DNA of 64,000 bases from Malania oleifera (taxonomy: Eukaryota > Streptophyta > Magnoliopsida > Santalales > Ximeniaceae): contig NC_080419.1 of assembly GCF_029873635.1 (NCBI RefSeq), positions 73,520,597-73,584,596 on the forward strand. The letters run 5' to 3'. A program made the translations under genes and the position numbers. A model generated the notes under the pieces. It was not told where the DNA came from. It did not search any database and worked only from the letters and a program-made list of their open reading frames with translations. Below, in pieces: positions 3,576-56,230 of the stretch (its first letter is position 1; the number at the start of each line of letters is the position of its first letter).

Positions 3576-3607
3576 ATAAGCTTAACCGTTTTTGCATAAA
3601 GATTGCA

Positions 3608-4692: not shown

Positions 4693-6530
4693 GTTCCAAA
4701 AGGAATTACATTATTGTTTAGAACAATTCTTCCTTAGATCCCAGGATTAGTTATAAGGGGGTAGTGATAACTGAATGCTTGGAAGTCGTCTGTGCTTAAA
4801 ATTTCAAATCCTAGAATACACAATTGTTATACTAAGAACATTAGAGAATCAAACCAATATGAAAATTCAAGTGTCATATTTATTCTAATCACTTAACGCA
4901 TATATCATCATCTCTTGAGTGAAATCTCATAAGTATGCTCAAATTAATCCACTTCCAAATGGACAAAGGTATTTGTGTTTACTAAATGATTTTTAATGCC
5001 ATAAATATGCTTAAATTTGAATATCTTAAGATATAACATATTTTTGTCCATAACTTAGATTTGAGCTTTTTGGAATTAAGCTTATACTATTTATCATATA
5101 ATCCTAAACTCATCGTGGAGCATTAATGCTTGATCACATTCAAGGGCTTTCTAAACTTATCCCCATGGTTGGATAATTTATTCATCACTGGAAATTCACG
5201 TTCTTCTGGTGAATCTTTCTCAAACCTAGTGTAAGCACATATTATCATAATCATTTCTTAATCTGTTAGTGCTTACTAAAATCCCTTCATGACTAACTTA
5301 GAAGCATCTAATAAGGGATTCAAGGTCTTCAGTACATCAAAGCTTTCCTTTGTGTTTAATCAGCAACATATGTCTAGGCCTCTATTAATATAAAAAGTGC
5401 TCTCCTCTATAGGAACTCTTTACCAATTATCGACCATAATAGGTAAAGAATTATCCTTTCATAAACTCGTATCCTTGCTCAAAGTTGTGAACATATTTGT
5501 ATGGTACTTTCCATTGTGGAATATCATAAATCACCCCAAAAGTTGTGCTCAAGAAAAATTCGTATACTCTTAAATGCTCTTTGGCAAAATGTTTAGGACA
5601 TATTCGCTAGCTTGAATATATTTTGCTTACTTTGAATACTGTCCATTCATAATTACTTTGGAACTACTTCAAAATTGAAAAACAACTCTTGGGCTATACT
5701 TATGAGCATTCCTTGCTATTGATTTATCACTTGAATGTTTATAAAGGAAGCAACACCAAAGTAATTCAAAGAAGAGCTATCCTAACGTAGGTCGTATCAA
5801 CTTAATATTTAAAAATTCACCTTATTAAGATGATTGTTGAACAAAAGCTTCTAAGTGTTTAACATAATGCTCAGCAGAAAGTCAAATTCAATCTCTTCAT
5901 CTTCTGTTCTATTATAGACACATTCTAGAGCTGCTAAATTTGTGCATAATTAGAACGAACATCTCTAGAGAATTTATATAAATTTGTACTCCGTAGTAAT
6001 GATTAATGGAAAGTCTGGCTGATATTATCAAGAAATGAGTTAACTCAGTTTTATCCTTATACCTCTATCAATATCATATTGAAACCACCCTTTATTAATT
6101 TTTGGGTAAGTCTTTACGTAAGATAGGATTTCGCTTTGAGAATCAATATATGAAGCCTCATAGGATATATGAAAGTTGGTTGAATCCAAATACTCATTCA
6201 TGTCATATATTGAACAGGAGATTCAACTTATCAAAATATCAAAGCAATCTTGGGTTCTCTAAACGAACATTCGATCATGATTATCTGAGAAACCCATGCT
6301 CAACCATGAGCTTCAAAGTATAAGTGCAATGCAATTGATTTTTCAAGCATTCAAAACATATGGCTGATTCAAAAAGGGAGAAAAATTTCATCTGCGCATT
6401 TTTCTAAATTCATTAAAGAGTAGGTATTCATACTCCCTTCATAAGCTCTAAAATATTAATCAAATCAATTAGAGCTTCATTTCCTTAGAATGGCATTAAT
6501 GAGCTAGGATGGTTGTTATAGGGTTCAATT
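4693..6530. other. AT-rich stretch without a recognised gene
   Basis: No frame of useful length or recognisable domain appears. It may be decayed internal SIRE sequence, since it lies between the gag and the next element. I saw no repeats linking it to other parts of the window. Confidence 0.5.
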
Positions 6531-6849
6531 GTCACTAATAGTATTAGTAACGGTTTTCCAAGTATTAGTGACGGTTTTGAAATAGTTATCATAACTGCAG
6601 TTATTAATAATTATTAGTGACGAATTTTAAAATTCGTGACTACTAATAGAGTATTAGTGACAGATTATAACCATCACTAAAACACCTATACCGTCACTAT
6701 AAATTCTATGTTGACTCCGCTCAAAATCATCACTAATAACAGACTAGTAGTTACAAATTTTAAAACGTCACTAATGCCACAGTAATAGTGACGAATATTG
6801 AATTCGTCACTACTAATATGCTTTTAGTGATGATTTTGAACTTTGTCCC
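6530..6849. repeat. CACTA subterminal repeat array, left part
   Basis: Repeated direct and inverted copies of ATTAGTGACGGTTTTGAA and its complement form short hairpins about every 40-60 bp. These are the expected TNPA-type binding sites of plant CACTA elements. The array is cut at 6,849 by a solo LTR and resumes at 9,026. Confidence 0.8.
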
Positions 6850-10252: not shown

Positions 10253-12365
10253 CTCAACCCTCCCTCCTTCTCTCTACATTTCTAGCTCCATTTCTCCCCT
10301 TTTCGACGATCAAAAGCCACCATGTTGATCCTGGGGAGATTTTCTACAAGTCTACTGGAGTAAATTGTTGGTTTGAACAATTTGGGCATCATCCCAAAAT
10401 TAGGGTAAGCATATTATTTTTGGGTATTTTTAGTATTACCAGGTTTATTTAAGCTTAGATTTGGTTTTGTATGAGAATATACTAGTGTTTTGTGAAGTAA
10501 AATTAGAATGTTATATTTTTAGGGTTAGGGTGTTTTTGGGACCCTACAGGCATAGGTTGAGGGGCCCAGCAGATATTTTTACAGGAGTTCAGGTATATTA
10601 TAATTGAGGAAATTGTGAATAGGCAGTTTCAAGAAATATGAGTGAGATAATTTTCTGGGAAAATTCAGTGATTTACTGAGGAATTTGTATAAATGTATTT
10701 TTGCAAGATTTTAAGATTGGTACACCGAGAGTGTGAGGGTAGAGTTGGAGGCGAGCCTCCCAGTCAGTTAGGTAAGAGAAATATGTTATGCTAGGAATGT
10801 TAGAATATTTATTAATAAATTATATGTTTTCCATATTATTATTCAGTTCATAAATTATTTGTATATCAGAAAATATAGTAGCAGTATATGAGATATTTAT
10901 TTATGTAGTTGTGTGGCATGAGACAGTATTTGATCAATATATGAAATATAAGGTTCTAGATTATTATGTTTTATGGTATCTAAGTAGAAATATGTTTATG
11001 TGACCTTATCAGAATAGTACAGAAACAATACAGTTTTCAGATTGGTATGATTTATATTATTGTGTAGAGATATGTTTATCAGAATTTACAAGAGTACGAA
11101 TTACAGTGTTTATACAAATAGATAGTTTACAGCATATGTAGGTTACCATGATTTTCCAAAATACTAAAACCGTAACACTATGTTATTACAGTTTATACAA
11201 CTCAGATAATACAATATTTTTAGATTAATTTTTGGTATTATGGTTATTTTCCATAACACTATGATATTACAGTTTACACAGTACAGAAATTACAGTATAT
11301 TCAGGATTAGTTTTCGGTGTTATGGTTATTTTGGAATCATGATGAAACAACAGGATAATTATGTATATCGGTACTATATAGTATCAGACCCTAATGAATC
11401 AGTTTAGTAAATATTCAGTTATTAGAGCACGATACCATTGCTATTACAAGATCAAAGTGCAACCACACATCTTAGATAGTGTGTGGAAGGTTTTCGTCAA
11501 CTGTGCTTGGAGGGATTGCAGACTCCCTAGAAGATTGGGTTGAGGTGGCCAGTTTGATGAGAGAATTACCAATTCCATGCCTAGGAGAGGTTGTAGTTTG
11601 GTCGGGCTGGCGTTTGGTAGAGTTATGGTTGACTTACGTGGTAGGCCAACTAGGATTAAGTCCCGCCTATGGGCCGCACAACCCTGTTATGAGGATCATG
11701 ACGTACAGATTTCCAAGGTAAGCATCTCAGTTATATATATGTATATGTATACAAATTTAAAAAATATCAGCAGATATAGTATGATACTAGAAGTATGAAA
11801 AAGTAGAAAACTTAGATAATACAGTTATACCTTAAACTATGATAGGTGCAAGATATATTGTATATGGTTTTACTAGCTTTTATAGTTTCATATATTGTCA
11901 ACATAGTATTATGAAACTTAGTTGCCACAAACTAGTAATAGCATATTTCCTCTTACTGAGCGTTGTCTCATCCCAATGATTTAATATTTTTCTAGTGATC
12001 CAATTAGGAGAGCGGGTCAGGCTCGCAAATAGAGAAGGTGAGTACACTACCCTACTAGCTGGGTAAGCATATACAGGAGATAGTATTTTTGCGTAGATGA
12101 TACTGGGATGATGTGTATATGTGTGTATGGTTGGGATAAGTTACTAAAATTCTGGTATTGTTTATATGGATGGACAATTTTATGTTTTTTCGCTGCATAG
12201 GTGTGTAATATAATCAGGTTTCCTCAATGCTTACATGGGGCCTAAGATGTTATAGCAAATTATACAGGAGTGACATAATGTTATATTTTGCAGTTTATTT
12301 TTTTTTTTAAATGGTATAAATTTTTCGGGTCGTTACAATAGTTCTATGAAAAAATAGAATGTGAT

Positions 12366-13040
12366 GTTCATGGTTTACATGACTTTCACTCATCCTTTCA
12401 AAAATATTTTAACATTCATGCTATCATAATTATCTTTGTACATGATTTTATTTGGGAAAATTTTAACGAAATTTTTGCAGCATGCCACCTGTAAATTGGA
12501 CATTTCCCCATAAAACTTGTACCTGAAATAGTATATTGTTTTCATCAAATAAATCATTTCAAGCATGCAACAACCTAAATCTACTACCAGCATGCAATTC
12601 ATAATATACTGCATCAGCCATGCAGTTGGCGTTCAACGCAAGCATGTATTCCAATAGTTCAATGAATAATTCATTTAACATTATACCATCCATCAAAAAT
12701 ATTTATTCATTCGGTGCATTATGGATAGTAATTTGTAATGTTGTTCACATAAATGATGAAGTTTAATATTCATTTAAATTTCACTCATCCTTTCAAAAAT
12801 ATTTTAACATTCATGTTATCATAATTATCTTTGTACATGGTTTTATTTGGGAAAATTTTAATGATATTTTGGTAGCATGCCACCTATAAATTGGACATTT
12901 TCTCATAAAACTTGTACCTAAAACAATATATTGTTTTCAGAAAATAGATTATTTCAAGCATGCAACAACCTAAATCTACTACCCGCATGCAATTCACAAT
13001 ATACTGCATCAGCCATGCAGTTAGCGTTCGACACAAGCGT
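12366..13040. repeat. Tandem duplication, period about 396 bp, in CACTA-2
   Basis: The block from CTTTCACTCATCC through CTGCATCAGCCATGCAGTT occurs at about 12,380-12,640 and again at about 12,775-13,035. A third related copy lies at about 19,920-20,240, beyond the TNP2-like gene. The TNP2/TNPA genes are thus bracketed by copies of this non-coding segment. The rest, to about 13,640, is AT-rich with no gene. Confidence 0.75.
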
Positions 13041-13817
13041 CTCGTGCAAATCTAAATCACAAATGAGATGAATGGTGTAGCATTTGCCATCACTACAATT
13101 TCTATCTCCTTTTCATAATGCACCTCTATTATGATTTCTTTCCTTTGGATTAACACCAAAAAAAAAAAAATTAACTAAAAAATTTTCATGAAAATTATTT
13201 TTCAGTGTTCGATGTATCACGCTATTGTCCCAATTGGCATTGTTTATCTAAAAATCATCATTATTGTGTAACAGGTATTAGTTCATCGATAGATTCGACA
13301 TAGTAACATCATTATTGGAAGTTAATATCATTCACAATTTAACCTAATTATTAATTTGTAATGCAAAATTTTACTTTGTGGACATCGTCTTTGCTTGTGC
13401 TTCATGATTTTAGATTTACTAGTTTCTAACTTGTGCTTTACATGGAAAGCATGAATTTATATCAAATGTATTTTCAATAATAAACTATAAATTGTGAGCA
13501 TGTATTAGAAATTAGACATATTTGCTTTAACTTTCACCCTAAATATTATTATATAACTTGAAAAGTTGTATATTACCATATATTAAGCCAACTTCTACTC
13601 GGGCATGATTTGTCCAAATTAGACAACTTATTATTTCCCCATCTTGACACCCCACATCACAACACCCAAGCTCTGTTCATACGAACTAATCTCCTCCCCA
13701 TCTCAATGTGATACTTGTCGTCTCCTTGTCATCATTGAACCATTCACTCCTCTCCTTCAACCATACTCTTTCTGTTATTCGTTTCACAACACACACACAC
13801 ACACACACTTATATATA

Positions 13818-13890
13818 CTAGAATATTATGAGATCAGTTGAACTAAGATCCTAACATGATAATGTACAAGAAGAAGCACCTTATTGTTGC
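13818..13890 (-). pseudogene. AGO4-clade intron remnant fused to the TNPA-like gene
   Basis: About 70 bp match the second intron of the AGO fragment in CACTA-1 (52,411-52,484), including GAATATTATGAGATCAG and AACTAAGATCCTA. The match ends with the splice donor and the last bases of the preceding AGO exon (CAACAATAAG|GTGCTTCT on the minus strand). Upstream of it (to the right) the sequence switches abruptly to the TNPA-like last exon. It cannot be translated as AGO; what remains is intron and ten bases of exon. Confidence 0.8.
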
Positions 13891-15376
13891 GAGGAGGAGC
13901 CACCTGCATCATCAGGACGAGATTGGTTTAATCTTTGTTCGAGCTGCTTGTGCCTGTTCATCATTATAACCATCAGGGCCTCAAAGTTGGAGACCTTCTC
14001 TTTCAATTGATTGATCTCCATTTCCATCGTCTATATCTAAAGAACCATCTCCTCCTTTTGAGATTCGACTTCCCTACGCGCTCAATCAAACTCAGCATGA
14101 GACGCCGCTCTGGCCATTGAAGATGATGTTGTTAGGGTGATGTTTTGAATAAAATAATGAATTGAATAATATATTTGACTTACATGTGTGCTCTGCGCAC
14201 CGTGGCACCACTCTCCCGATCGCTTTTGGTGTGTTTTCTAATAAAGATTTGGTATCGGCTCATATGTGCCAGTCTCGGGATCACACTACATTATCATATA
14301 AAACATCATTAATATTAATTCAACGATTTAAACATAAATAACACTCATCAGATAATGGTCAGATAGTTTTATAGCAATTACCATTCGATGATTGATGAAT
14401 AACCTCGACCCACCGCAATGAGGTATCTCTAGTTTGCTGCGGTTCTTAGCATTTTGTTCACATATAGTCTACGAAAAAGATGTAAGGACTTTTAATTAGC
14501 CACATTAATATGGAGAAGTAGTTATTATAATAGATACACATCACTTGAGTGTGGGTCGCGGAAATGGTGACACACCACCTCCCAATCCTCTTGGAATATC
14601 CTATCGAATGGGTGCACTTCTACCCGATCTCCCATTGCCCTAAAATTGTTGCGCATTTTGGCCCGATAGGTCTTAAATTTGTTGCACAGCTACACGTTGA
14701 CCACCCTTTTAACATGGTCGGCCTCAAGAATGTCCATATCAAACTCCTCTTATATATGAAATGCATTTAGAATGTTAGACAATTATTTGGCTAGTATATT
14801 AAAAGTAAAAGTGAAAAAATGGTTTGGGTTTACTTACCAATATGCGCCTGTAAAAAACCATGCACTGCACCTCGATCACCTGTGGTCAGCTGAAGGCGGT
14901 GACTGGAGTATATTGCTGGCATATAATGCCGAGCTCCTGTGTCCAAGTTGTATACCAATGGCCGTTATGCGGGGCTGTGAAACCTAGAGGAATATCAATT
15001 CGGATCCGCGCCCTAGTACTGTGTAGGTGCTTCTTCAGCTCCATGTTCTTTACTATACTGTGACCTGACCTCGTCGCCTGTGTCGTTGGGGTCGATGCTG
15101 AAATAAAAGTTAAAGAACAATATTTCAATCACACACATGTATGACCATCAATAGTTTTATTCTAAATCAATTACTTGTAACCTTACTAACGCTGCTGATG
15201 ATGGTGGGCAACTCACCGTGGGTTTGATCCTTAGCTGATGGATCCATGTCTGGCTGGGCTCTTGAAAGCTGAGACGGTGATGGTGTCGCCGGTCTCGAGG
15301 ACATCGAATCATCCTCGGGTGACGATGTTGTCGACACATTGGGCTGAACTCCACTACGATGACCTCCTAGTGCCAT
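13881..15376 (-). pseudogene. TNPA-like CACTA accessory protein gene (plant transposase, Ptta/En/Spm family)
   Basis: A multi-exon gene read leftwards from MALGGH (ATG at 15,374-15,376). Exon 1 runs to about 15,187 and ends at a GTAAG donor. Exon 2 is about 14,838-15,097 and encodes the conserved IRIDIPLGFTAPHN...WTQELGIICQQYTPVT segment. Later exons near 14,550-14,760 and 14,200-14,480 match those of CACTA-1. The last exon, near 13,890-14,100, is a heptad-rich dimerisation-type tail. An in-frame TAG near 14,244 stands where the CACTA-1 copy has CAG, so it is probably dead. Its termination codon lies in the fused AGO-derived sequence (13,881-13,883). TNPA proteins bind subterminal repeats during transposition. 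Confidence 0.75.
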
Positions 15377-39679: not shown

Positions 39680-39682
39680 AGA

Positions 39683-40255
39683 CACTACAAGAAAAAAAGT
39701 TATTAGTAATAGTTTTAAATCGTCACTAATAATCAAAAAATTGTCACTAATATTATTAGACACAGTTTTGTCGGTATTAGTGACGATTCCAGCTTTGTCA
39801 CCATATTTGCGAATACTTATACTTATTAGTGACGAAATATTCAAATCATCACTAATAGTGGAGTATTAGTAACAGGAAAAAAAAGTATCATCACTAATAG
39901 ACTACGACCGTGACTATAAATTATACATATGGTCGGATCAAATTCGTCATTAAAGAGCAAGTATTAGTGACGGATTTAATAATTGTCACTAATATGACAC
40001 TATTAGTGACGCTTAATAAACCGTCACTAATGTTACGCTTTTAGTGACGGTTACTAGAACCGTCACTAATAATATAATATTAGTAACAATTATAAAACTA
40101 TTACTAATATTGTGCCTTTTGTGACAAAATTGAACGTAGAAAATGGTGATTCTATAGTGATGGTTTTAAACTTTTAGTGACGATAAATAAACCGTCACTA
40201 AAAGTTCATTCTTGCTATTATTAGTAACAGTTTTGTAAACTGTCCCTAATACTTT
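39683..40255. repeat. CACTA-1 left terminus and subterminal repeats
   Basis: CACTACAAG is followed by about fifteen TTAGTGACGG / CCGTCACTAA words in alternating orientation, making hairpins with short loops (TTTAATAATTG, CTTAATAAAC). Confidence 0.9.
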
Positions 40256-40669
40256 GAATTTTTTTTTTAAATTCCTGTAAAAACCCATAATTACATTAGC
40301 ATACATAAAATTAAACCAGAATTACTTAAACATTCAAAAATTATTCAAAATTCAAATACATGTATACGAATGTAAATTCAAATTAAAAAATAAAAAATAA
40401 TTCTATTTAGAAAGTTCAGAATATAATAAAATTCTAAATTAAAGTTGTAGTGCATCGACCCGACTGTAGTGTCTATCATCGTCATAGTGGTCTGCAGCCG
40501 CAAGCCCTACAAAATCATAATTATACAAGAAATTAGTATACAATATTTAAACATATATGTATATACTATAATTAAATATCATTTTATACAAAAATGATCG
40601 GACAATCAGACATAGTGGAAAAAAAATGATACAATTGTAAAATAACTAAATTTGATCAGTCGAAAGTTA

Positions 40670-42535
40670 GCTCACTCGGTTTGGACCTCATATGACTGAA
40701 TTGTAAGCTTAGTTTACTAAGTAGTTTGTTTGTATTATAACTTTACTTTTAAGGGGAAAAAAAGCTCTTGGGGAGGAGTTTTTGGGGACCATCAGATCTA
40801 ACATGTCCAGTTTGATGTGATGAACGTGTCGATATTGACCAAACTTAGTTTGGACCTCGAAGTCCCGAATTGGACACATGGGTTGTTAAATTCAACTAAG
40901 TGCACTAAGTTTGCCTCTAAGCGTATAATTTTTAATTGGCATGGATTTTTTGATGACCGTCAAATTCGGCACGTCCCATTTGATGTGACGGACGTGTCGG
41001 GACTAATCACGCTCGGTTTGGAGCTCGTATGACTGATTTGGATACCTAAGTGCTTAAAATGAACTAAGTTTACTAAATAGTTTGTTTCTATTCTAACTTT
41101 ACTTCTAAGTGGGGAAAAAGCTTTCGGGAAGGAGTTTTTGGGGACTGTCAGATTTGGCACGTCCAATTCAATGTGATGGACGTGTCAGGACTAACCACAC
41201 TTGGTTTGGACCTCGTATGCCCGATTTGGACAGCTGAGTGCTTAGAAATGAACTAAGTTTACTAAGTTCGTCTCTAAGCATATAATTTTCAATTAGCATG
41301 GAGTTTATGGGGAATGTCAGATCCGACATGTCCAGTTCGATGTGATGGACGTTTTGGGATTGATCGAACTCAGTTTGGACCTCTAATGCCCAATTTGGAC
41401 ACATGGGTTTTTAAATATAACTAAGTGTACTAAGTTCGCCTCTAAACATATAATTTTCAATTGGCATGGAGTTTTTGAGAACCGTCAGATCCAACACGTC
41501 TAGTTCGATGTGACGGACATGTCGGGACTGACCATGCTTGATTTAGACCTTGTATGCCCGATTTGGACACCTGAGTGCTTAAAAATGAACTAAGCGTACT
41601 AAGTTTTCCTCTAAGCATATAATTTTTAATTGGCATGGATTTTGTGGGGACCATTAAATCCAACATGTCTATTTCGATGTAATGGATGTTTCGGAACTGA
41701 CTGAACTCAGTTTGGACCTCGAATGCCCGAGTTGGACACATGGGTGGTTAAATTCAAATAAGTGTACTAAGTTCACCTCTAAGCGTATAATTTTCAATTG
41801 GCACGAAGTTTTTGGGGACCATCAAATCTGGCACATCTAGTTCGATGTGACGGATATGTCAGGACTGACAAGGCTCGATTGGGACCTCGTATGCCTGATT
41901 TGGACACCTAAGTGCTTAAAATGAACTAAGTTTACTAAGTAGTTTGTTTCTATTCTAACTTTTTTTCTAAGACGGGAAAAAGCTTTCGGGAAGGAGTTTT
42001 TGGGGACCGTCAGATCCGACAGGTCCAATTTGATGTGACAGACGTGTCGAAACTGACCACGCTCGGTTTGGATCTCGTATTCCCAATTTGGACATCTAAG
42101 TGCTTAAAGTGAACTAAGTTTACTAAGTAGTTTGTTTATATTCTAACTTTGCTTCTAAGTAGGGAAAAAGCTTTTGGGTAGCATTTTTTAGGGACCATCA
42201 AATCCGGCACATCCAGTTTGATGTGATAGATGTTTCGGGACTGACCACGCTCGATTTAAACCTTGTATGCTTGATTTGGACATTTAAGTGCTTAAAAATG
42301 AACTGAGTGTACTAAATTCGTCTCTAAGCGTATAATTTTCAATTGGAATGGAGTTTATGGGGACCATCAAATCCGATATGTCCAGTTCGATGTGGTGGAT
42401 GTGTTGAAAATGACCACATTTAGTTTGGACCTTGTATGCTCAATTTGGACACCTAAGTGCTTAAAATGAACTAAATGTACTAAGTAGTTTGTTTTTATTC
42501 TAACTTTACTTCTAAGTAGGGAAAAAGCTTCTCTT
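40670..42535. repeat. Ten-unit satellite array in CACTA-1, units of about 168 and 188 bp
   Basis: The landmark GTTTTTGGGGACC(G/A)TCA(G/A)ATC recurs at about 40,778, 40,945, 41,132, 41,303, 41,470, 41,640, 41,809, 41,996, 42,186 and 42,355. Spacings are about 167-171 or 187-190. The longer units carry an extra piece (AAGTAGTTTGTTT...TAACTTTACTTCTAAG). Each unit also contains TTCGATGTGACGGACGTGTCGGGACTGACC. CACTA-2 lacks it at the equivalent place. Confidence 0.85.
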
Positions 42536-42538
42536 AAT

Positions 42539-44391
42539 TCATTGCATACAAAATATATATAATAAAATATGAAAATATAACTGCATAATTACACTGTGTA
42601 ATTTAGAACAACTCAATTTCAAAACTCCCAACACAAATTTCCGTACCGCATACTGAGTACACCTGATCAAATGAGAGGATGAGGCACCTGCAGCATCTGG
42701 ATGAGATTGGCACAACATTTGTTCCATCTGTGCTTGCCAGTTCTTCATTGCTTCCATCTCCACTTGGACGATAGACACCTTCGCTTGCCAAGTGGACACC
42801 TCTCCTTTAAGATGATGGTTCCCCATTTCCATCATCTGCACTCGGAGAACCATATCCTCCCTTTGAGATTCGGCTTCCCTATGCCCTCGATCAAGCTCGG
42901 TACTAGACGTCGCGGTCAAAGTAGATGCTGATGTTAGGGCAATGTATCCACTGCCAACGCCATTCAACCAGCCCCCCGCACATTCCCCAAGCACCTGCCT
43001 GTAGATGTCATCATCTGAAACTGGCTCAATCCCCTTTGGAACAGGTGCATTCTTCAGCTCGACCATCCTCGCCTATTTTCAGTCATAAAAATGTATAAAA
43101 TGAAGAAATAAGAATGCAAATTTGAAGTTTTGAATAAAATAATGAACTAAATAATATATTTGACGTACATGTTTCCTCTCCACACCCGGGCACCACTCCC
43201 CCGACGGTCTCTAATATGTCCTCTGATAAAGATCCGGCGTCGGCTCCAGGTCACCAGTCTTGGGATCACACTACATTATTATGTAAAACATAATTGATAT
43301 TAATTAGGTTTGGTGTAAACATAAATAACACTTGTCAGGTAATGATTATACATATAAATATAGAAATGACCCTTCGATGCCTGACGAACAGTTTCGACCC
43401 ACCGCAATGCGTCGTCTCTAGTTTGCTGCGGTTCTTGGAATTTTTGTTATAGATAGCTTACTAAAAAGAAAAAATGAATTTTCATTAATTAGCGACATCA
43501 ATATGACAAAGCAGTTATAACAATACAAACACCTCACCTGATAGGCCAAGTCGCAGATATGGTGACACACCACCTCCCAATCATCCAGGGAGATCGTATC
43601 GAATGGGTGAGCCTCTTCCTGATCTCCCATCGCCTTAAAATTCTTACGCATTTCAGTGCGAAAACTCTTGAACCGACCGCACATTTGAGTGTTCACCGCC
43701 TTTTTGACATAGTCAACATTGAAAATGTCCATATCAAACTTTACCTGCATATGAAATACATATAGAATGTTTGACAGTTAATTGTGTAGTATATTAAAAG
43801 TGAAAGAAATGGTTTAGAGTTACTTACCAAGATGTGCTCGTATAGAACCAAGCGTTGCACCTCTGTCACATTTGGCCATCTAAAGTAGGTGACTAGAGCA
43901 TATTTTCAGCATATAATGTCAATCTCTCATGTCCAACTCATGCACCAATCGTTTAGCGAGGCTGTGAATCTTGGAAGGATATCGATCCGGATCCGCTGCC
44001 CCCCATTCCTCTCTAGGTGATTTTTCAAGACCGTGTTCTTTGCTGCACCATGACCTGACCTCATCGTATGTGTTTCTGACAACATCGATGTTGCAATAAG
44101 AGTTAATTTCGAACAATATTGTTATCATTAACGTGTACAACCATAAATATATTATTCTAAATCAAATACTCGTAACCTTACCAACGCTGCTCATCATGGT
44201 GGGTAACTCACCCTGGTTGTGTGATGCCTAGCTGGTGGATCAACATCCTCGGGCAAGGGTCCTGAGGACTTAGATGGTGCCGCATAAGGACCGATGTCCT
44301 CCGCCGGTCTCAAAGACGTCGGATCAACCTCGAGGGACGATCCAGTTAAGAGCCTAGACGTAACTCGAAGATGACGACCTCCTGGTGCCAT
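42539..44391 (-). pseudogene. TNPA-like CACTA accessory protein gene
   Basis: The start is MAPGGRHLRV (ATG at 44,389-44,391). Exon 1 runs to about 44,182 (GTAAG donor). Exon 2, around 43,850-44,095, encodes RIRIDILPRFTASLNDWCMSWT-type sequence. Exon 3, around 43,540-43,745, encodes DMDIFNVDYVKKAVNTQMCGRF...DDWEVVCHHICDLAYQ. Exon 4 (about 43,380-43,440) encodes KNSKNRSKLETTHCGGSK. Exon 5 (about 43,165-43,275) encodes DLEPTPDLYQRTY followed by a stop, then PSGEWCPG. The last exon (43,066-42,539) has a coiled-coil tail (EAESQREDMVLRVQMMEMGNHHLKGEVSTWQ). The order and exons match CACTA-2, and both copies carry stops. Confidence 0.8.
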
Positions 44392-44512
44392 GTGTGCAAA
44401 ATAATACACAAGAAAATATAACATGATTTGATATTAGATTGATGCATAATAAATATATTTTCAGTTATTTACATGTCACATACATTGTGACAAACATTAC
44501 ATGCTTACCCCT

Positions 44513-47155
44513 TTATATGTCCTCAATATCAATACCATCCTCACTTTCTAATATGCCTTCCTCTTCACTACAATAATCAACCAAAGTTTCATCTTCCCCA
44601 TCAGTTTCATCATTTTCGATGAAGTCAATGTATTCATCAGGTTCAATTCCAATGTCAGCAGTCCGTACGAGTTCGGCCGTGGCACCAACCCTACTCAATG
44701 GTATAGGATCGGCTCCTTCCTCAACAACGTTAACAGCAGATTGTGTTACTGCACTAACAGATGGATCATTATCCTAGAAAGCATCCTCGCTGACACTCTT
44801 CTCCGCATCTGCAACTTCTGTAATAGCATACAAACTTTGGGGAGGAATGTTTTGGGTCACATGCCATTCACCCTTCAATTTTGTATCCTTAAGGTAGAAG
44901 ACTTGTTCTGCCTGCGTCACTAGCACATAAGGGTCATTTTGATACCATGTCTTACTAAAATTGACACATGTAAAGTAGGCATCCGTGTTTATCCCAGTAT
45001 TTTTATTGCTAATGTCCCACCAGGTACACTTGAACATGTGGACGAGTCCGTTGGCTTCATAATGAAGCTCTGTAATGTCATCCAATACACCAAAGTAGTC
45101 AATTTCCTCATCTCCTTCTGTGCCTAGCACCACAACCCCACAATTATGGGTTCTTCTATACACTTTGAGAGACTTCGTATGAAATCGTAAGTCGTTGACA
45201 ATGCAATTGCTGTAGTGGTTAACTCATTGATCGAGGTCACATGCCAACGCGTACAAATCTTTACTTGCTGTTGGTTCTTTATTGTAGTACATGAATTTTA
45301 TCTATTAATTAAAAAGGATTTTATATTTCACAAATCGTTCATATTGAAAATGTACAATGCTTCGAACTCACATAAAATTTGTTACTTTCACGGCTCCCAA
45401 ACCAATGGACAAATTCCTTCTTATGTCTTTCATCAACATTCCTTTCATTTTGGGTTAGAAGTTCAGTTTTATGTTCATTATATGCAACAATAGTACATGT
45501 TAATGTCAACTAAGTATATATATGCGTATGTAAATACAATGCAAAGTAAGGAGTTTGGAACCACGTACTCGATATATGAAACAATTTCATCACAAATATT
45601 AAGGACGTAAAAATGAGCCTTTTGTAGGTCGTCAATATCAATGAAATCGTAAACCCATGGACCAAACAGCCAAATATTTCCTTAAATATAGAGCTCCTCG
45701 GTTCTTCATCTTCGGCATTAATAGCATGAAATTTTGCATTTCACTCCTCACGAGTGAACATTGTGTCAATATCTTGTAGATATATTAAGCAAAATGCAAG
45801 ACATTCACTGTCAATGCATGCCTCAATGATTGAACCTTCCGGTCGTGCCTTCTTGTGCACATACCCCTTCAAAGTGGACAAGAACCTGTGCATTTTACAT
45901 AACATTAGTGACTTGTATGCCAAAAAAAAAAAAAAAAAAAAGGAAATCACGTGAACATTGTAGGACTTTATAATTTACCTCTCAACAGGATACATCCAAC
46001 GATATTGCACCAGTCCTCCAATTATGGCCTCCCTTAGTAAATGGATGGCTAGGTGGACTATCACATCGAAGAATGCTGGTGGAAATATTTTCTCTATCTT
46101 TCATAGTATGATCACAATGTCATCCTCTAACCATGCTAGTACGTTTACGCTCATTTTTTTTGGATCACAACTATTGGAAGAAGATCCCTAGCTTAATTAG
46201 TACTGAGCAAACATCTTCAATCAAGTGTCTATGAAGGAAAACGGGGTAGAACTCATTGTAGAAGGACGTGAAAGTCATGAATTTTCACATGTACAATCGT
46301 TGTAGACACGGTATTAATGGACAATATTGCAAAACATTTTGGGGAATCTTTTTACCCTTCTTCTAATTAGTTTTATACCTTGGTTCATCACATTCTGGGC
46401 ACTCATTCGCATTTTCAAGTTTACCATAAAAAAGTGCACAATTATACCTACAAGCATTTATTGGAGTGTAACCGAGGCCCAATTCATGCATGTATGTCTT
46501 CGCCCCATAAAAGGACTTCGAAAGTGTTTCACCATAAGGCAATGCCACCTAAATGAGATTTATGCATGTTGAATACGCTCTAAGATAATCCATGCATTGT
46601 CCTTGTATGAAACAACTTAATCTGAAACTCCAATTTTGAGAACTTTGTATAGTTTGGATATAGGAGCACTCGTGCATCCCTCATGATATTAGCAAATGGT
46701 TTACTGAGTCAATTTAACGTACTAGGATCATAAGGTATGGCACCTGCTGAAGTAGATTTGTCACCATTATGTGAGACATTGATGTCATCCGTGTCCACTA
46801 CAATCCCCTTTTGCAAGTCACCTAACATTTTAATCAACCTTTTCGACCATGTATCACCACCTACTATATTTGCCCCCCCCCCCAACTTTATCTTCTTCAT
46901 CATCATTTTGAACTGCGTAATCTTCACTGTGGAAGACCATGTTGTATAGCTTTTCTCCATTCTGAAGTGTAATATATGTTTACGAGCCAAATCAATGTCT
47001 TTGAATGTTATGTTTTGGCATTTCTTGCAAGGACGCCATATTCTACTAGCTTTGTTTGCACGAGGATGCACGAACTCTATGAAATCATGTACCCTTTTCA
47101 CGTATTCATCTAAAAACTTACCTCGAGCATTCATCAAACTCTTATCCATGTTCAT
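44513..47155 (-). pseudogene. TNP2-like transposase gene with its catalytic core deleted
   Basis: It begins MNMDKSLMNARGKFLDEYVKRVHDFIEFVHPRANKASR (ATG at 47,155). It continues through the N-terminal tnp2 part (LGYTPINACRYNCALFYGKLENANECPEC, 46,540-46,390) to 46,287. There the sequence jumps to the DUF4218-like part (46,280 down to 45,740, MHRFLSTLKGYVHKKARPEGSIIEA). The DUF4216-like part (45,160-44,830, GVVVLGTEGDEEIDYFGVLDDI, FKCTWWDISN) and acidic C-terminus (44,513) follow. Compared with CACTA-2 about 1.1 kb is missing (its 17,308-18,430), including the SDPRN...FNPF and HNLDVMHIEKN blocks. Further stops exist. It cannot encode an active transposase. Confidence 0.9.
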
Positions 47156-47549
47156 TAACAACCCTATAATATGTTCAAGCAAATGTTGTTGATTACATTA
47201 TCAAAATAATGTTTATACCGCATGCATCGTGAATCCTAAAATCAACCACCTTTCGTCTAAAGGGTACGAATTCTATCCCATTCAGGAATATTGTATTTGC
47301 ATTGCAGTCAATCACTCAAATTCCTTCATTATAGTCATTCTAAATTTCGGCAGCATCTCCCCATGGCTATCCAAGTACACGAGATGGGGGAAGTGAACAT
47401 GTTGCTAGATGTTCCATCACTAAAAAATTGTCACGACACCCCACTATGCACCCAGAGAACACAAGTAGAGACGCGCTCAAAATATATAATGACAATGAAG
47501 AAAGCGTGAACGATGAAGAAAATGTAAATACAACTTCCTAAACTATCCA

Positions 47550-47742
47550 CATTGGACAATTCAAGAATGGTTGAAATACAAACATCACTAATCGTAAATG
47601 AAACAAATTAATAATGAACATGGTCAATTGATTATTAGTCTACATAGTATGACTAATAATCAATTGAATTTCATTAATTGATTTGTCCTACATGTATGAT
47701 GAGGCATGAATGTATAGTAACCATTCTTGAACGGGTCTAAGC
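47550..47742. repeat. Foldback upstream of the TNP2-like gene
   Basis: Same structure as 19,690-19,885: CAATTCAAGAATGG against CCATTCTTGAA, with inner arms CAATTGATTATTAG and CTAATAATCAATTG around a short loop. Confidence 0.75.
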
Positions 47743-48640
47743 TTCAATGAAAATATGAAATGCAGTTCTCAATATGTTCAATTAACTAGCATGCAACATC
47801 ATTAGTTGGATTTTGGTTTCTTTGTTCTTGTTTCCTATATATGGAAGGAGGCATGTATTAAGAGGAAAAGAACAAAATTGCCTCTCACCATCTATAATTG
47901 TTTCGAAACTCATAAGGAATACTAACTAATACTGAAATTTACAATAACGATAATCGATATAAAACATACAAACAATAATAACAATAATAATGAATATACA
48001 ATAACTATAAAAATATAAAATACGATGACATATAATAATGCCCAAAACAAAAATCAAATAAATCAAAAATTTACATAAACAAATACAACATAAATAAGAA
48101 TCAAATAAAACTGAAATTTAAACTACTTACGAAATAATTAATTTAATTATATCCTTCAATCTTGAATTTCTAATAGAATTATACAACACTTTCAAACAAC
48201 ATAAAAATTATATGTAACAATTTAGGGGGATTAGGATTCAAATTGTAGTAGGCTACCACAGTACTTAGACCCACACACACACTCACATGCCCATGCAGAC
48301 ACATCCACACACACTCACATCCATACACACACACACACACACACACACACTTACACACCCTTGCAAACACACCTAGACACATTCAAACCCACACACACAC
48401 ACGATCACACACCCACACGCAGAGACACACCCACAGACACGGACAGACGCAGGTACCACGTACACACACGGTTTGGCAAGCAACAACGGCGAGATTCAGC
48501 AAGCGGCGGCGGGGGGAGGAGGTTTGGCAAGCAACGGCGAGCAACCGAGGGAGAGAAAGAAAGGGGCAACCGAGGGAGGGAAAGAAAGGGGCGAGGGAAA
48601 GAAATGAGGGATAGCGTAGGGATTTGGGGATTTTAACCAG
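47743..48640. other. Leader/promoter region of the CACTA-1 transposase genes
   Basis: AT-rich to about 48,240, then CACA-rich tracts (48,265-48,415), then a GC- and purine-rich stretch (48,475-48,625) with duplicated GGCAAGCAACGGCGAG and CAACCGAGGGAG(A/G)GAAAGAAAGGGG words. Read on the minus strand this is a pyrimidine-rich leader upstream of the TNP2-like start. No gene was seen. Confidence 0.5.
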
Positions 48641-48735
48641 ACTATTAATGTCACTAAAACTCTTAAAACTATCACTAATAGTCTATTATTAGAGACAATT
48701 CTCCTAAACCGTCACTAATAGTTTGTCATTTAAAA
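48640..48735. repeat. Displaced subterminal words
   Basis: CACTAATAGTCTATTATTAGAGAC and CCGTCACTAATAG are the right-end subterminal type, cut off at about 48,735 from the rest of the right-end array (52,985-53,814). The 4.2 kb between them therefore looks like acquired sequence. Confidence 0.7.
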
Positions 48736-49502
48736 TTAAAATTAAAAATGTTGTACCAATTAGGGGTGAGCATGTATAATTATAGAAAACGAGAAATCAT
48801 TGAATTAAGTGACCAATTTCGATCAATTCGGTACAGTCAATAAATAGGTTCTGTTCAATTAATCAGTTACGATTTTAACAATTTTTGGTTCATCAATTAT
48901 CAGTTTGGTTAACCGAATTAATAATTAATCACAAATTTAAATATAAATTAATGCTTAAAGCTACTCTGAAGTGTTTTGAAAACCATGTAGTCACTAATTT
49001 ATATTTTATTAATTTTATTAATAATAAAATTAGCATATTAATTAGCTACTTAACTAAGCTAAATGATTAGTGGCGGTTGATGAAAGCTGTAATGAATATG
49101 AAGACTATTATTGACGGTCTTTCTTCCTGGACAATATATATCAGCAACAGTTCCTATCTGTCCATATGCTATGAAGATAGTCTCACACTGGCCCATCTAA
49201 ATTGTAATCATCTTCACGAGCAACCCACCTACGCATGCACCGACATGGCTGTTATAGAATGAATCTCATTCCGGCTTAATTAATTGCGGCTGATACCAAA
49301 TTTGAATTCCTCCACTCATACGACTAGCTCCTGGTAATCCGTATATATGCCTGGTTCACTATCAATGACATTTCTCCCAAAATTTTTCCACCCACTATGT
49401 TAAGAACAATAATCTTAGTCCATCCGGACATATAGATCTTTCCTTCACATTTGAAAGTAGTTACTTCTATATATTAGCTAGGAAAAGTGAGAAAAGATTT
49501 TC
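48736..49502. other. Unassigned stretch inside CACTA-1
   Basis: AT-rich. TAGGGGTGAGCATG near 48,762 and GTTTGGTTAACCGAATTAA near 48,903 look like a hAT-type or MITE-like end, but no matching partner end was found. The GC-richer part at 49,075-49,330 could be another captured fragment but shows no recognisable protein. Confidence 0.35.
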
Positions 49503-49507
49503 ATGAT

Positions 49508-51556
49508 TGTTGGAATTGGTGTATTCCCAAGAGCGGGTGTGAATTGGGTATTAAAAATTTTGTCCTAGGTTCAATGTCCAGCAGCAGTATAACACAACCT
49601 AGAGTCTGTCTATACAATCCCAAATGCATAGGAAAATATAATATACGAAAATTAAATCATGCGCAGCATTCACAGTCTAATGAAAATAACATACATGTGT
49701 AGTAGATAAATCAAAAAATTATAAAGTAGACACACAATATGCTATTGGGGTTCGACCAATACTGCCTACGTCCCCGCCTGGGCTCGCAAGCCCAAGGATT
49801 TCACTAATGCTCACTTAACGAGTGGATCAGCACCAGTTACGATCGGATCAACTTTTAAAGGCTGACCTTAACCTTTACAAACTCTCCTTGTAGGGCGGAG
49901 AAGGCCCTATCAATTCTTACGGGCTATATCAACACCCCCTTAGGCCATGCCTGGAATACCACAATGAATATAAATTTTTTGTACAAATAAAGATGCTTCT
50001 AATGCAAGCAGATTTGTACTGATATGCACAAGCAATAACTAATGCACTTTAATATGATAAGATCTATAAGCTTAGTGAAGATAAGTCAATCTACTCTCAA
50101 TATTATGTCAATATGCAATGAAAGTGTGAGAGTGTATGTGTTAGTGATCTTTGAATCAAATAACAATTTCAATCACAATGTGCAATATCAAAGATCATAA
50201 CCACACAATCAAAAATCTTGAAAATGATTTTCAAAAACCAAGCGCATGAGATATTTTGAAAACAAAATTTGTCAATATTTTTCTTCAAAACACAAGACAA
50301 CCTCAAGAGTCAAAGACTCACAAAATGAATTTATTGATTAAATCATGAGGGAAAAACTCTTCAGCTTAACTCTCAATAAAATCAACAAATAATCACAAAT
50401 AAAAGAATATAAGCTTGTATAGGAAGTGTGGGTGATCTCAAAGATACTCTCACTCAATAAGATTTTGCAAGGAAATGAGTATATGTGAGGTATATAGGCT
50501 TGAATGGGGAAAGGAATTTTAGAGAGAAAAAATTTTAATCTAATCTCTAATCACTCTCTAATTTTTGCAAATGAAGGCATATATATAGCTTTCACTAAAA
50601 ATATGGCCTTTAGGATATAGAGGGAATAATTAAAAATGTTTTAAACAAGTTTAACCCAAAATAACCATGTTTTACCCTTAATAACCTGTAGTAAAAATAG
50701 GCCAACTTGAGAGTTTCGGTCGAACAAGCCATAGCTTCGGTCGCCCAAACTGACACATAAGAAAAAAAGGAATTTTTGAAGTTCGAGTGCCCATGGACGG
50801 GTTTGAGTGGTTGAACTAGGCTCTTTTCCAACCTGCTCGAGGTTCAGTCACCTGATTAGAAGTTCTATCTGCTGAACTTCAATATTCGATCACCCGATTT
50901 CAAAATGAACTTGAAGTCCGAGCGCCTGAGGATGTTGGGAAAAGTCAAGACTTGGGTTCGGTTGACCATGGACGTTTAGTTCAAATAAGATTGGTTGCCT
51001 GAAGTTAGGTCAACATTTTGACTTTTCCTATGTTCGGTCAACTGAGGCGTTTTCAATGCCAAGGTTCGGTTGCATGAATACATTTCAATTTTCAACCTAG
51101 CTTATATTTTTACCCCTGTTATTTTCCTTAAGTAAAGTGTAGGGACTTAGGGTCTCTTTAAGGTCAAGGCTCTTTGACTAAGCCTAAAAAACATGGTGTT
51201 GGTCGACCGCCCTAAAGACTATCTATGGCCTTTGATTATTCCTATGGTCCTTATTGAGCTTATAGTCCTATTATGCATGATATGCATAAATTATTACAAA
51301 CCTTTGAAATAATTATTACATACCCAAATAGAAAAACTAAATACAATTACAAATAAAAATAATTGTCTTCTTCTTCTTTTGCTCCTTTGGTCATGAAATA
51401 CACTAGACGATAGAATTGTTTTGTCTTTCGGGCTTCCATCAATCCTTTCTCATGTGTGTGTTCATAATTAATGACCTGTTCAAGTACTACGCACACACAT
51501 TAGTAACATACAATTTGTCATTATCAAAACCAGGGATCGGACACAAAAAGTCAATA
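49508..51556 (-). mobile_element. SIRE-type solo LTR with exact target duplication
   Basis: The left end TGTTGGAATTGGTGTATTCCCAAGAG is the reversed LTR end and the right end ...GGATCGGACACAAAAAGTCAATA is the reversed start. ATGAT flanks it on both sides (49,503-49,507 and 51,557-51,561). Length 2,049 bp. A reversed TATA box lies at 50,578-50,590. The word array at about 50,710-51,080 is heavily decayed (TTTCGGTCGAAC, TTCGGTCGCCCAAA, GTTCGGTTGACC). Confidence 0.9.
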
Positions 51557-51859
51557 ATGATCGACCTGATTCATTCAAGAAGCTAAAACTAAAAATGAGT
51601 AATGCTTCCGTGAAACCTTTGCACAATACTACAAAGTCCGTCTCAAAGAAGCTGGAACTAGCTTTCTCATATGGTGAAAGTACAAGAAATTCATTGGGGG
51701 AATAAGCAATATAATTAATATGATGTGTATGGGCTCTGGTCCCATAAAACTAGGACAAGCTCTGAATTGTAATCATCTTAATTCCATGAACAGTTTCAAA
51801 AGATCTCTCAAACTAGCTCAATTGCATAATTAAAAATCACAAATTAATGAAGTATACAC

Positions 51860-52786
51860 CTTAGCATTGATCTTGAGCAAAACATTTGTAAGATACTGGT
51901 TGTTAACTCTAGTAGGAGCAATGCATTAAGTGAAAATTCCAAAATCAGCAAGATTCTTTCGCTTCCAAAGACCTTAAACATTAGATAGATTCATTAGCAC
52001 CAACCAAAAATTAACTTTATAAATACAAAATAAACTAGCCACAACCATAAAGATCGGAGTTCTTCCTATCTGGAAGAAGGCAAAGAAGCAACTTTGGAGC
52101 TCCAGGAAGTTTATATTGTATGTCTTCAAACATTTTCTCCACTCTAACAATACGTGGAGCCCGTCTAGACTGAGGGTTCTCTTCAAATACATCGAATGTA
52201 GGTTCAATGACCTACAGAACACATGACAAAGAACTTCCATTAATCTCCACTCTTATATTGCAGAAAACATAATATAAAACTTACAATTCCTTTCATTTCT
52301 CCACATTTGATTAGATCTCTCACAAGACCACAAATATTACATCAAGCTGAGAAATTTACACAAGCCCAATGTTCAATCTTTACTTGCTCCACTAGTTTCT
52401 AAAACAAAGCACAAAGAATATTATGAGATCAGTTGAACTAAGATCCTATTATGATAAAACATAAGGAGAAGCACCTTATTGTTGAAATTCCATCTCCCAT
52501 TTCGAAGGAAGAAATCCTCCCCATTTCCTACTTTCAACTGCAATAAAACAAAATAAGATCAAATATGATACAAAACCAAGCTCAACATTCCATGCAAGGG
52601 AAGGTCAAGTTAAAATTCAATTTGTACGTACAACTAAAACAATTTTACAATCTATTTCAGTATTTCATTTAAATGAAAAACATACGCACCCTGGGTGCTG
52701 ACAAAACCCAACCTTCTACTTGAGTAAACTAGGAACTGATTGAGACCCTACAAGAACGTAGCATGGGCTCAGCATAATAATTGTTG
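51860..52786 (-). pseudogene. Captured ARGONAUTE (AGO4-clade) gene fragment, five exons with introns
   Basis: Five exons on the minus strand, each bounded by splice signals: A 52,690-52,786 (AEPMLRSCRVSISS, stop, FTQVEGWVL), B 52,475-52,537 (LKVGNGEDFFLRNGRWNFNN), C 52,285-52,398 (KIEHWACVNFSA, stop, CNICGLVRDLIKCGEMKGI), D 52,046-52,211 (VIEPTFDVFEENPQSRRAP... LPGAPKLLLCLLPDRKNSDLYG) and E 51,860-51,972 (LWKRKNLADFGIFT, stop, CIAPTRVNNQYLTNVL, KINAK). Exon phases agree across all junctions. The stretch covers the linker after PAZ and the MID domain. LLCLLP(D)RKNSD-YG and KRKNLADFGI are AGO4/6/9-type, not AGO1-type. Intact proteins of this clade load 24-nt siRNAs and guide DNA methylation. 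Three in-frame stops and missing N-PAZ and PIWI parts make this a fragment. Intron retention shows capture at the DNA level. Confidence 0.9.
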
Positions 52787-52859
52787 ATTTTTAAAGCATG
52801 CAAAAAAACCCATGAAATGCTGACAAAAAATCTAAGCAAATCATGTTGAGTATTACATT

Positions 52860-53814
52860 AATAACATTTTCAAGAGGGGGGGGGGGGTTCGACCTGAGAG
52901 ATTGAGAAAGGAGGGAGGAGGGAAAAGAGGGAGAAATGCGAGGGAAAATGGAAGCAGATTGGGAAATCGCATGGAGAAGGTAAATTTAATAGGTTAGAGT
53001 ATTAGTGACAGTTTAAAAAACTGTTTTTTAAACTGTCACTAATACTAGATTATTAGTGACGAATCCTCTAAACTATCAATAATACCCTATTATTAATGCA
53101 GAATGCTCTAAACAGTCACTAATATTCTTAACTAAATTATTTTTATATTTTTAAAATCAAAGCACTATAGTGACGGTTTCATAAACCATCACTAATAATA
53201 GACTAATAGCGACGAATCCTGGGAACCGTCATTAATATGGTTAAATAAATTATTTTCATATATTTTTAAATAAAAAACTATTAGTGATGTTTTTAAAAAC
53301 CGTCACTAATAATTGGCTATTAGTGACGAATCCTCTGAACCGTCACTAATAGTATTAAATAAATTATTGTTATATTTTTTTAAATAAAAAACTATCAGTG
53401 ACAAATCCTCTAACCGTTACTAATAGTGTTAAATAAATTATTTTTATTTATTAATACAATAATAGTAGTGATGGTTATTTAATCGTCACTAATAATTGAC
53501 TTTTAGTGATAGATTCAATTTGTCACTAATATGCAAAGAATCATCACTAATATTTTTCCGGGATACTTTCTGTATGAAAAATGGTTTCCTGCGATAGATT
53601 GAGTGGGAAAATCAGTTTTTAGTAACGAAATTATTAGTGACGGTTTTGAAATCGTCACTAATAGTGTCAAATTAGTGGTGGTTGCTAAAACCATCACTAA
53701 TGCTTACACTATTAGTAATGGTTCTTAAAATCAGTCACTAATACCCACTTTTAGTGATGAAATTGAATCCGTCACTACTACTTTTATCACTAAAAACCAG
53801 TGTTTTTTTTAGTG
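52860..53814. repeat. CACTA-1 right subterminal array
   Basis: After a G-run and a purine-rich block (52,880-52,980), about twenty ATTAGTGACGG/CCGTCACTAAT words alternate from 52,998 to the terminus at 53,814. Spacers contain TTAAATAAATTATT repeated with a period of about 115 bp (53,130, 53,245, 53,350, 53,430). Confidence 0.9.
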
Positions 53815-56230
53815 AGAACTATATCTTGCTAGTAGATTAACAGTAAATGCAATGTTGGGTTTTGTATAATTGGTCAGATACATTAAAGAGCTGATAACAC
53901 TTAAATATGAGACTTCAGGACCAAGTAATTCCTTCCCCTCATCATGAGGTCGAAATGGATCATTCTTGACATCAAGTGATCGCACCATCATTGAAGATCC
54001 CAAAGGATGAAATTTGACAATATAGAATTGCTTTAATATCTTTTCAGTATATTTAGATTGATGAACAAGAATTTCACTATTTACATGTTCAATCTGTAGG
54101 CCAAGATAATATTTTGTCTTTCCTAAATCTTTCATTTCAAATTATGCCATTAAATAATTAGCAGCTTTAGTGATCTCTTTAGGAGTCCCAACTAAATTTA
54201 AATCATCAACATAAACAACAATTATAGCAAATCTAGATTCTGATCTTCTAATAAAAATGTATGGAGAAATTGGATCATTCATGAATCCTTCTTTCACAAG
54301 GTACTCACTTAATCGATTGTATCACATGCGTCTAGATTGCTTTAATCCAGATAAAGAATGTTGAAGTTTAATTGAATATAAATTTATGGGTTTTGCTTTA
54401 GGCATTTTAAATCCTTCAGGGGTTTTCATATAAATTTCATTATCCAATGATCCATATAGGTATGTTTTTACTACATCCATAAGATGCATGCTCAGTCGTT
54501 CAACGACTGCACACAAATATTCATCTGTGATATAAAGTTTAATTCCAATGTGATAGTCTCTTTTCATTCTGGTCAATCACTTCTATATCGACATTCATTG
54601 ACAAATTTAGATTCAGGATCCTCATTACTACTGGTAATGTCAGTAGCTACTGCATATGCAAATATGTTGTTGACAACAACTTTATTTCTATCCCAAATGT
54701 TTCCTATCTAATGAATTGAGATCTCATTATTATTTTCAAGTACACGTCCATTTTCAAGGGATGTCTCTTTATAAGTTTTCTCTTCAGGAGATTCGTCTTC
54801 AAGAGGATCCTCTTTAGGATATTGCATAATAGTGATTTCATTTTTAGGAGAAATGAATTTGTAAATGTCGAATGGATTATCCACCTCTGTGAGCTCTTTT
54901 GGAATGTTTTTCAGATTTCAATTTTCTCCTTCTAGGAGTTTTATCTTTTGTACCAAAAGACCTTCCATGCTTAACTTGGGGTTTAGGTTCTTTAGCTTGT
55001 TGTTGTACTTCAGGGACATCAATACGTGCTAGAATATTTGCAGCAGGTATATGAGATTTTATATGGCCTCAGTATCTGCAAAAGAATCTGGTAATTGATT
55101 TGCAATCCCTTGCAAATGAATAATGTTCTGAACTTAAAGTTCACTTTGATTTGTGTGAGAATCTAAATGAGATAAACTCATGGTATTTCATGTGTTCTCA
55201 TGTTGTGCTTCATGCATTGATTTTGCTCCCCCTAATGTAGGGAATACTGTTTCATCAAAATGACAATTTTGAAAATGTGCTTTAAACAAATCAATTATTA
55301 AAAGTTCAAGATATCTAATAATAGAAGGGGAATCAAAACCAACATAGATACCAACCTTACATTAAGGACCCAGATTAGTTCTTCAAGGATGGGCAATTAG
55401 AGCATATACTGCACACCCAAAAGTTCTTAAATAAGAAATATCAAGTTGTTGTCCAGAAACTAATTGCATGGGTGAAAGATTATTATAAGCATAGAAACAT
55501 GTGACCTTCTAGTAGATGCATCAATTAAGACTATAAAGTATCTAAATGGTTCAGATGGTGGATGTATTGGTCTACATATATAACCATGAATTCTTTGTAA
55601 GAAACTGGGAGATTCAAGACTTACTTTTGAAATAGATTGTTTGACAATTAATTCCTTTTAAATCAAGCAGTATACGTGAATTCTTAATGATTCTTCGCAT
55701 CATTACATCTTCAGGATGTCCAAGACGATTATACCAAAGTGTAAATAACTTTGGGTCATTGCTCTTCTGGTGCCAGACATTATATGATTCAGTTGCCTTA
55801 ATCTTTGTATAATACAATCTAGAAGATAAAGTTGATAGTTTTTCTAAAATTTGTTTCTTCCGAGAAACAATAGAAGTAATATAAAGAAATTCATTACTGC
55901 CTTCATTTGTAGTTTCAATGTGATATCTATTAAGTCTTAAATTTTTAAAGGTTAACATATTTATTCCTAATCTACTGAAATATAAAGTTTCATCAATTTG
56001 TAACAGAGTACCATTGGGTAACTTTATATTAATGCTCTTCTAGAGCCTTTCATCAATTTTTTAGAACTAGATAATGTATTAACATTTGTTAAAGATATAT
56101 TCAAGTAATGTAAATATTTCCTTTCTTGAAGAATTTTGTGTGTTGTAGCACTGTCAGTTAAACAAACTTCTTCCAAAGAAATCTTAGAATCGATCAAAGC
56201 TTTAAGACAATTCACACTACAACACATATT
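53815..56230 (-). pseudogene. pol: Copia pol, 5' part: protease, integrase, reverse transcriptase
   Basis: Read leftwards: a protease region near 56,227-56,024 (CLTDSATTHKIL, NVNTLSSSKKLMKGSRRA); the GAG-pre-integrase region (LWYNRLGHPEDVMMRRIIKNS, 55,820-55,700); a degraded integrase; then reverse transcriptase. The latter has VKTYLYGSLDNEIYMKTPEGF (54,480-54,400), LSGLKQSRRMWYNRLSEYL, the catalytic YVDD (about 54,200-54,215) and MKDLGKTKYYLGLQIEH (54,135 leftwards). It runs to the CACTA insertion site at 53,814 and resumes at 39,679. Several stops and an integrase deletion make it inactive. Confidence 0.9.

Follow-up and report, generated by a model that had tools for sequence, protein, structure and literature searches.

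A CACTA transposon carrying an amplified fragment of an AGO4-type ARGONAUTE gene, and other pieces of the gene in plant repeats

Fragments of host genes have been described in several kinds of plant transposon. A review describes siRNA reservoirs in maize that consist of gene pieces taken up by Helitrons, Pack-MULEs and Sireviruses (PMC13317346). CACTA elements of Chenopodium are described as holding host gene fragments in their 5′ region, upstream of the coding sequence (PMC8978399). In rice, the precursor of the CACTA-borne miR820 folds back and gives rise to 22- and 24-nt RNAs, and cleavage of its target has been shown (PMC3459959).

The locus described here shares features with the CACTA systems among these. 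Its cargo derives from an AGO4-type ARGONAUTE gene, which would act in RNA-directed DNA methylation if its putative clade is right. As in the Chenopodium elements, host gene pieces occupy the 5′ region; the cargo there includes an 80-bp AP2 fragment and fragments of Neprosin, and here it is a five-exon AGO4-type piece in dozens of copies (PMC8978399). The soybean CACTA element Tgm-Express likewise carries host gene fragments, whereas the gene captured here is presumably a silencing gene and none of the copies examined is unbroken (PMC1947982). Coding segments were captured at the DNA level by a CACTA-ended element, as in Pack-CACTA and Pack-TYPE elements, although those are non-autonomous and this element still contains transposase-gene remains (PMC8903248, PMC13317346). 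Like the rice CACTA elements with pre-miR820, it holds exon and intron sequence, multiplied with the element, from a gene that may belong to RNA-directed DNA methylation; unlike miR820 and OsDRM2, the cargo is a sense fragment without a fold-back in the copy studied, and comes from an AGO4-type gene rather than DRM2 (PMC3459959). No report of a transposon-captured AGO gene was found in the open-access literature searched. As far as this literature shows, the new features are an AGO4-type ARGONAUTE as the captured gene, the large, high-copy pieces, and the occurrence of different parts of the gene in several repeat families.

The CACTA element and its ARGONAUTE cargo

We analyzed a window of 64,000 nucleotides (C3:73520597-73584596) in a 1.49-Gb plant genome (G000), the features of which are collected in Table 1. 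Both ends of the CACTA element are bordered by an AGA 3-bp target duplication (39680-39682 and 53815-53817), and subterminal repeats of the TTAGTGACGG type occur at both ends in both orientations, as in CACTA (En/Spm) elements. The insertion site is clean: once the flanks of 39683-53814 are joined, the RT/RNase H frame of the copia element is open. The preliminary description had allowed that the termini might belong to two different elements. The AGA/AGA flanks and the single open copia frame obtained from the joined flanks exclude a chance junction of two elements, and 39683 and 53814 are the ends of one insertion.

Table 1. Coordinates of features within the 64,000-nucleotide window.
Feature	Position	Strand	Description
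Second AGO-gene remnant	13820..13889	-	End of exon 2 and intron 2, equivalent to L056:3131-3198
CACTA element	39683..53814	- (coding sense)	CACTA...TAGTG ends; inserted in a Ty1/copia element
Transposase-gene remains	44513..47197	-	Pfam Transpos_assoc and DUF4216
Stretch of ~2.05 kb	49508..51556	.	Missing in all other inspected copies spanning the site; approximate ends
AGO4-type gene-derived segment	51829..52873	-	Homologous to L056:2750-4037 minus a 245-bp block of gene intron 3
AGO exon 5/5 (start of PIWI)	51860..51972	-	One stop
AGO exon 4/5 (MID)	52046..52211	-	89% protein identity to source gene
AGO exon 3/5 (MID)	52285..52398	-	One stop
AGO exon 2/5	52475..52537	-	In frame with the other exons
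AGO exon 1/5 (linker 2)	52690..52797	-	One stop

Within the transposase-gene remains, Pfam identified Transpos_assoc at approximately 47140-46934 (E = 3.4e-10) and DUF4216 at approximately 45070-44858 (E = 8.1e-21). With these domains present, the element is not a Pack-CACTA, which is non-autonomous and without transposase coding. The window copy is probably defective, because no transposase-core family was reported by Pfam for 44513-47197 read in one frame. In 18 of the 19 other copies examined (L002-L020), the homologue of position 51557 adjoins the homologue of approximately 49507 without the intervening 2.05 kb; the nineteenth, L018, ends short of this junction point. L062, which represents the same place as L004, likewise lacks the stretch, which is probably a later nested insertion.

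Five AGO-type exons had been reported inside the element at 51860-52786, and this is confirmed by exons that read in one frame, a Piwi domain match and a host gene with the same exons; the homology (52873-51829) is slightly longer than first reported. The 564 exon bases share a single frame with three in-frame stops and extend from linker 2 through MID into the beginning of PIWI. The four introns (152, 76, 73 and 73 bp) all have GT...AG borders, and the AG that precedes exon 1 in the gene is AT in the window copy. The identification as ARGONAUTE comes from Pfam Piwi, which matched the cargo translation above its cut-off (E = 7e-8); ArgoMid (E = 8.1e-6) and ArgoL2 (E = 8.3e-6) each scored 26.4 bits, below their respective cut-offs of 27.5 and 33.3. 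The translation also matches the solved plant AGO10, AGO1 and AGO5. From sequence motifs, we take the cargo and its source to belong putatively to the AGO4/6/9 clade; none of the matching proteins listed was labeled as a plant AGO4-clade member. The cargo and the transposase-gene remains are both on the minus strand, so that the cargo is in sense with them.

Source, spread and decay of the cargo

The host parental gene anticipated in the preliminary description was found at G000:C2:129160755-129167052 (L056), 90-92% identical to the cargo. It has the same five exons with the same borders, and its introns align with those of the cargo. Two aligned blocks of 626 and 425 bp, introns included, are 90.4% and 92.5% identical in DNA, which excludes a chance match; the source is this gene or a direct ancestor of it. 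The first frame with an ATG begins at locus position 756 and the frame of the last exon stops at 7053; the gene looks intact, as judged by these first and last frames. We also considered a second AGO4 gene as donor and rejected it: a search with gene positions 700-2257 gave only L056 at high full-length identity, the two other long matches being 65-66% identical (40 of 90 candidates scored). The 245-bp block of gene intron 3 is absent from all fetched copies that span the site, those of classes C and D (described below) included, and was probably acquired by the gene at a later time.

A search of G000 with the 927-bp cargo returned at least 42 matched stretches (40 of 226 first-look candidates scored). 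After removal of the window (one row) and the gene (two rows) and merging of three neighboring pairs, at least 36 other places remain, some of which belong to classes C and D. Further CACTA copies with the same cargo, whose existence had been raised beforehand, are thus abundant. We inspected 22 loci, namely L001 (the window), L002-L020, L024 and L025; L021 lies at the same place as L001 and L023 at that of L004, whereas L022 is the gene itself.

Nine of these 22 copies share a 5′ capture border at gene position 2257/2258, preceded by the same element sequence, and the others start at 2750-2753 (four copies, the window's type), at 2500 (three) or elsewhere (six). The 3′ border lies at 4033/4037 in 20 of the 22 copies and is followed by the same element sequence. 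The fullest copies span gene positions 2258 to 4037. Among the other copies L002-L020, all 11 of the 19 that show both sides have the order 5′ end, cargo, element interior, with the cargo in sense. Because of the two common borders, the pattern is best read as a single capture followed by amplification and deletion; counter to one capture, 13 of the 22 copies start away from 2257/2258, and L018 and L025 lack the common 3′ border.

For codon analysis, we used 21 aligned copies (L001-L020 and L024), three of them truncated. All 21 contain one or more in-frame stops, and exon indels are found in 15 of the 18 non-truncated copies. Between copies, first, second and third codon positions differ by 10.5, 8.9 and 8.2%, respectively, and introns by 7.4%. 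Because the three codon positions are similar to each other and to introns, this comparison demonstrates that the copies evolve neutrally, with no protein kept. The frequency of change at G/C sites is approximately 4 to 9 times that at A/T sites, depending on the site class, suggesting heavy methylation of the copies.

Differences from the gene that are common to at least 70% of the copies comprise 19 silent and 4 replacement changes, indicating that the gene line stayed constrained. At these 23 sites, L057, an AGO4-type paralogue on C10, has the copies' state 13 times, the gene's state 7 times and neither 3 times. This suggests that many of the changes arose in the constrained gene line, with a polarization that is weak because, of the 142 third positions that can be compared, only 75 are identical between L057 and the gene. 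In the cargo's own class (class A), fixed changes are more frequent at third codon positions (19/188) than in introns (16/474, p = 9e-4). The excess is absent in class B (6/90 versus 54/925), and we treat it as a lead only. No stronger CpG depletion was seen in the captured parts of the gene than in the uncaptured parts.

Other pieces of the same gene

Additional repeats hold other parts of L056. Class C comprises gene positions 2973-4553 in L065, in a related CACTA-type element with an inverted 2109-2160 piece nearby. Class D is an internally deleted form in L066 that ends at the same position 4553, downstream of a frame that we take to be TNPA-like. The second remnant in the window (Table 1) is 90% identical to the cargo over 70 bp (E = 1.4e-21) and 87% identical to the gene, and sits at the end of a degenerate frame, presumably also TNPA-like, in another CACTA-type element; L066 is arranged alike. 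No Pfam family was found for the TNPA-like frame. Window positions 12300-14800 represent the remains of this second CACTA-type element, in which the degenerate frame enters AGO-derived sequence and stops inside it.

Shared states suggest, with moderate confidence, that classes A, C and D trace to one capture, and independent captures were rejected at the same level, some sites being contrary. L025 agrees with class A at 13 of 15 coding sites, and L065, L066 and L058 share several non-gene states, for example at 3267. Other observations are contrary or equivocal: L065 keeps the gene state at 3112, 3649, 3655, 3810 and 4035, and L066 at 3153, 3230, 3655 and 3672. In the tree, classes A and C, together with L058, are separated from the gene and L066 by a branch with support 83/76, and L058, a short class D piece, is placed inside A at support 0/30.

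A separate 59-bp segment, L056:2102-2160, has at least 16 matches in G000 at 93-98% identity and is better conserved than the rest of the cargo. This repeat adjoins the class C piece or an E5-type piece in L065 and L059.

Class B spans gene positions 5073-6644 with sharp borders and accounts for at least 62 matches, the gene included (40 of 216 candidates scored). In the one example that we followed, a PMD ORF (E = 2.3e-16) lies approximately 2.5 kb off and a MuDR-type ORF (E = 6.7e-6) approximately 5 kb off, with a copia element on the other side and a CACTA-type subterminal array approximately 7 kb away. A MULE-like carrier is a guess, because copia and CACTA-type sequences are also near this example. 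Class E, gene positions 905-991, was present in 21 of the 40 matches listed (40 of 90 candidates scored). Three class E loci were fetched (L067 1061-1172, L069 1047-1158 and L068 1084-998 on the minus strand), and they belong to one repeat family. The match goes straight into the next exon in L067 and L069, and at all three loci the sequence continues without an intron. Because it reads on in this way, the class E piece appears to derive from spliced RNA. Gene positions 4554-5072 match only the gene and the paralogue on C10 (33 of 33 candidates scored).

The dispersal is also visible in profile searches of G000. Piwi gave at least 86 matches (130 of 323 candidates scored), 44 of which are dispersed fragments that fall in the class B exon, at profile positions 220-279; 13 of these loci were confirmed as class B by DNA. 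No scattered pile-up was observed for three control families with all candidates scored: the 33 MCM matches (36 of 36 candidates) group into 8 gene-like clusters, C5-methyltransferase has 7 matches (11 of 11), and the 22 RdRP matches (54 of 54) also group into gene-like clusters. Nor did L057 scatter at high identity beyond a C11 cluster and one C8 piece (40 of 655 candidates scored). The control set is small, with three families and one paralogue, and profile searches see domain exons only. Four long RdRP-family matches lie within 0.7 Mb, at G000:C4:58031761-58702193.

The C11 cluster includes an inverted duplication of part of L057 (L070 859-2607, G000:C11:25348658-25350406), with arms of approximately 870 bp that are 95.6% identical in self-alignment and are separated by approximately 6 bp. 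By search, the same duplication is also indicated at C11:25445664-25449261 and C11:25428587-25432213. L070 may be a natural hairpin-RNA locus directed at a further ARGONAUTE gene.

Possible effects of the cargo

The observations above show capture, amplification and decay of a gene fragment, and we consider it probable that its copies serve as passive cargo and give rise to small RNAs with homology to AGO4. A CACTA element took up genomic DNA with its introns from the AGO4-type gene or a direct ancestor, between the element 5′ end and the transposase genes, and carried it to dozens of places, the window form losing gene positions 2258-2749. Given its sense orientation relative to the transposase-gene remains, the cargo would contribute AGO4 sequence to a transcript of the element. 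For the same reason, antisense RNA from the element's own transcription, one of the roles offered in the preliminary description, is not favored. We infer methylation of the copies, the small RNAs and any effect on AGO4. Against purely passive cargo stand the other gene pieces in other repeat families, with three control families clean: chance capture of one gene does not easily fit pieces in several repeat families.

An siRNA effect of the cargo is possible. In the exons of the gene, 176 of the 464 21-mers and 129 of the 449 24-mers have a perfect match in one or more of the 21 aligned copies, and the window copy alone accounts for 29 and 19, respectively. Three gene stretches absent from the tested class A and B copies gave 0/1538, 0/1015 and 0/436 21-mers, in a control that covers these two classes, parts of two of the stretches occurring in classes C and E. 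Small RNAs of this kind might lower AGO4 in trans, weaken RNA-directed DNA methylation and help the element spread. The CACTA-borne miR820 acting on OsDRM2 in rice provides a precedent (PMC3459959), and the many perfect matches, the several repeat families that hold pieces of one silencing gene and the class A third-position excess over introns, as escape from mRNA-directed siRNAs would predict, point the same way. However, the window copy contains no inverted AGO copy of useful length and folds in an ordinary manner (z = -0.93, 4 of 20 shuffles at least as stable), the third-position excess is absent in class B, and CpG depletion is no stronger in the captured parts of the gene. Overall, we regard such an anti-silencing role as rather unlikely. 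An extended form, in which unrelated families took up AGO4 repeatedly (CACTA, repeats close to MuDR/PMD ORFs, and repeats with a spliced piece) and retained it at high copy number since AGO4-homologous small RNAs dampen silencing, with the gene answering by silent-site change in the captured exons, is more doubtful still.

Homology to a needed gene may alternatively shield the element, since strong silencing would also hit AGO4 and be selected against. This model has been stated for captured pieces of important genes (PMC13317346, PMC8978399), and the high copy number would fit, but the mutation pattern of the copies is an indirect sign of heavy methylation; we find such camouflage improbable. 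With linker 2, MID and the beginning of PIWI represented in the cargo, a dominant-negative AGO protein or a decoy, the latter raised in the preliminary description, could be imagined. The stops in every aligned copy, the exon indels in most non-truncated ones and codon-blind evolution contradict it, leaving this possibility barely credible. Taken together, the part of the earlier interpretation that stands is the capture of an AGO-type piece by a CACTA element, now widened to many copies and other repeat families; the protein decoy is contradicted and the antisense role is not favored.

Rice miR820, acting against DRM2, is the only worked example we found of a transposon that makes an RNA from a gene silencing it. 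In the present case that gene would be the effector AGO4, the cargo is large and present in many copies, and different parts of the gene are distributed over several repeat families, as against three clean control families.
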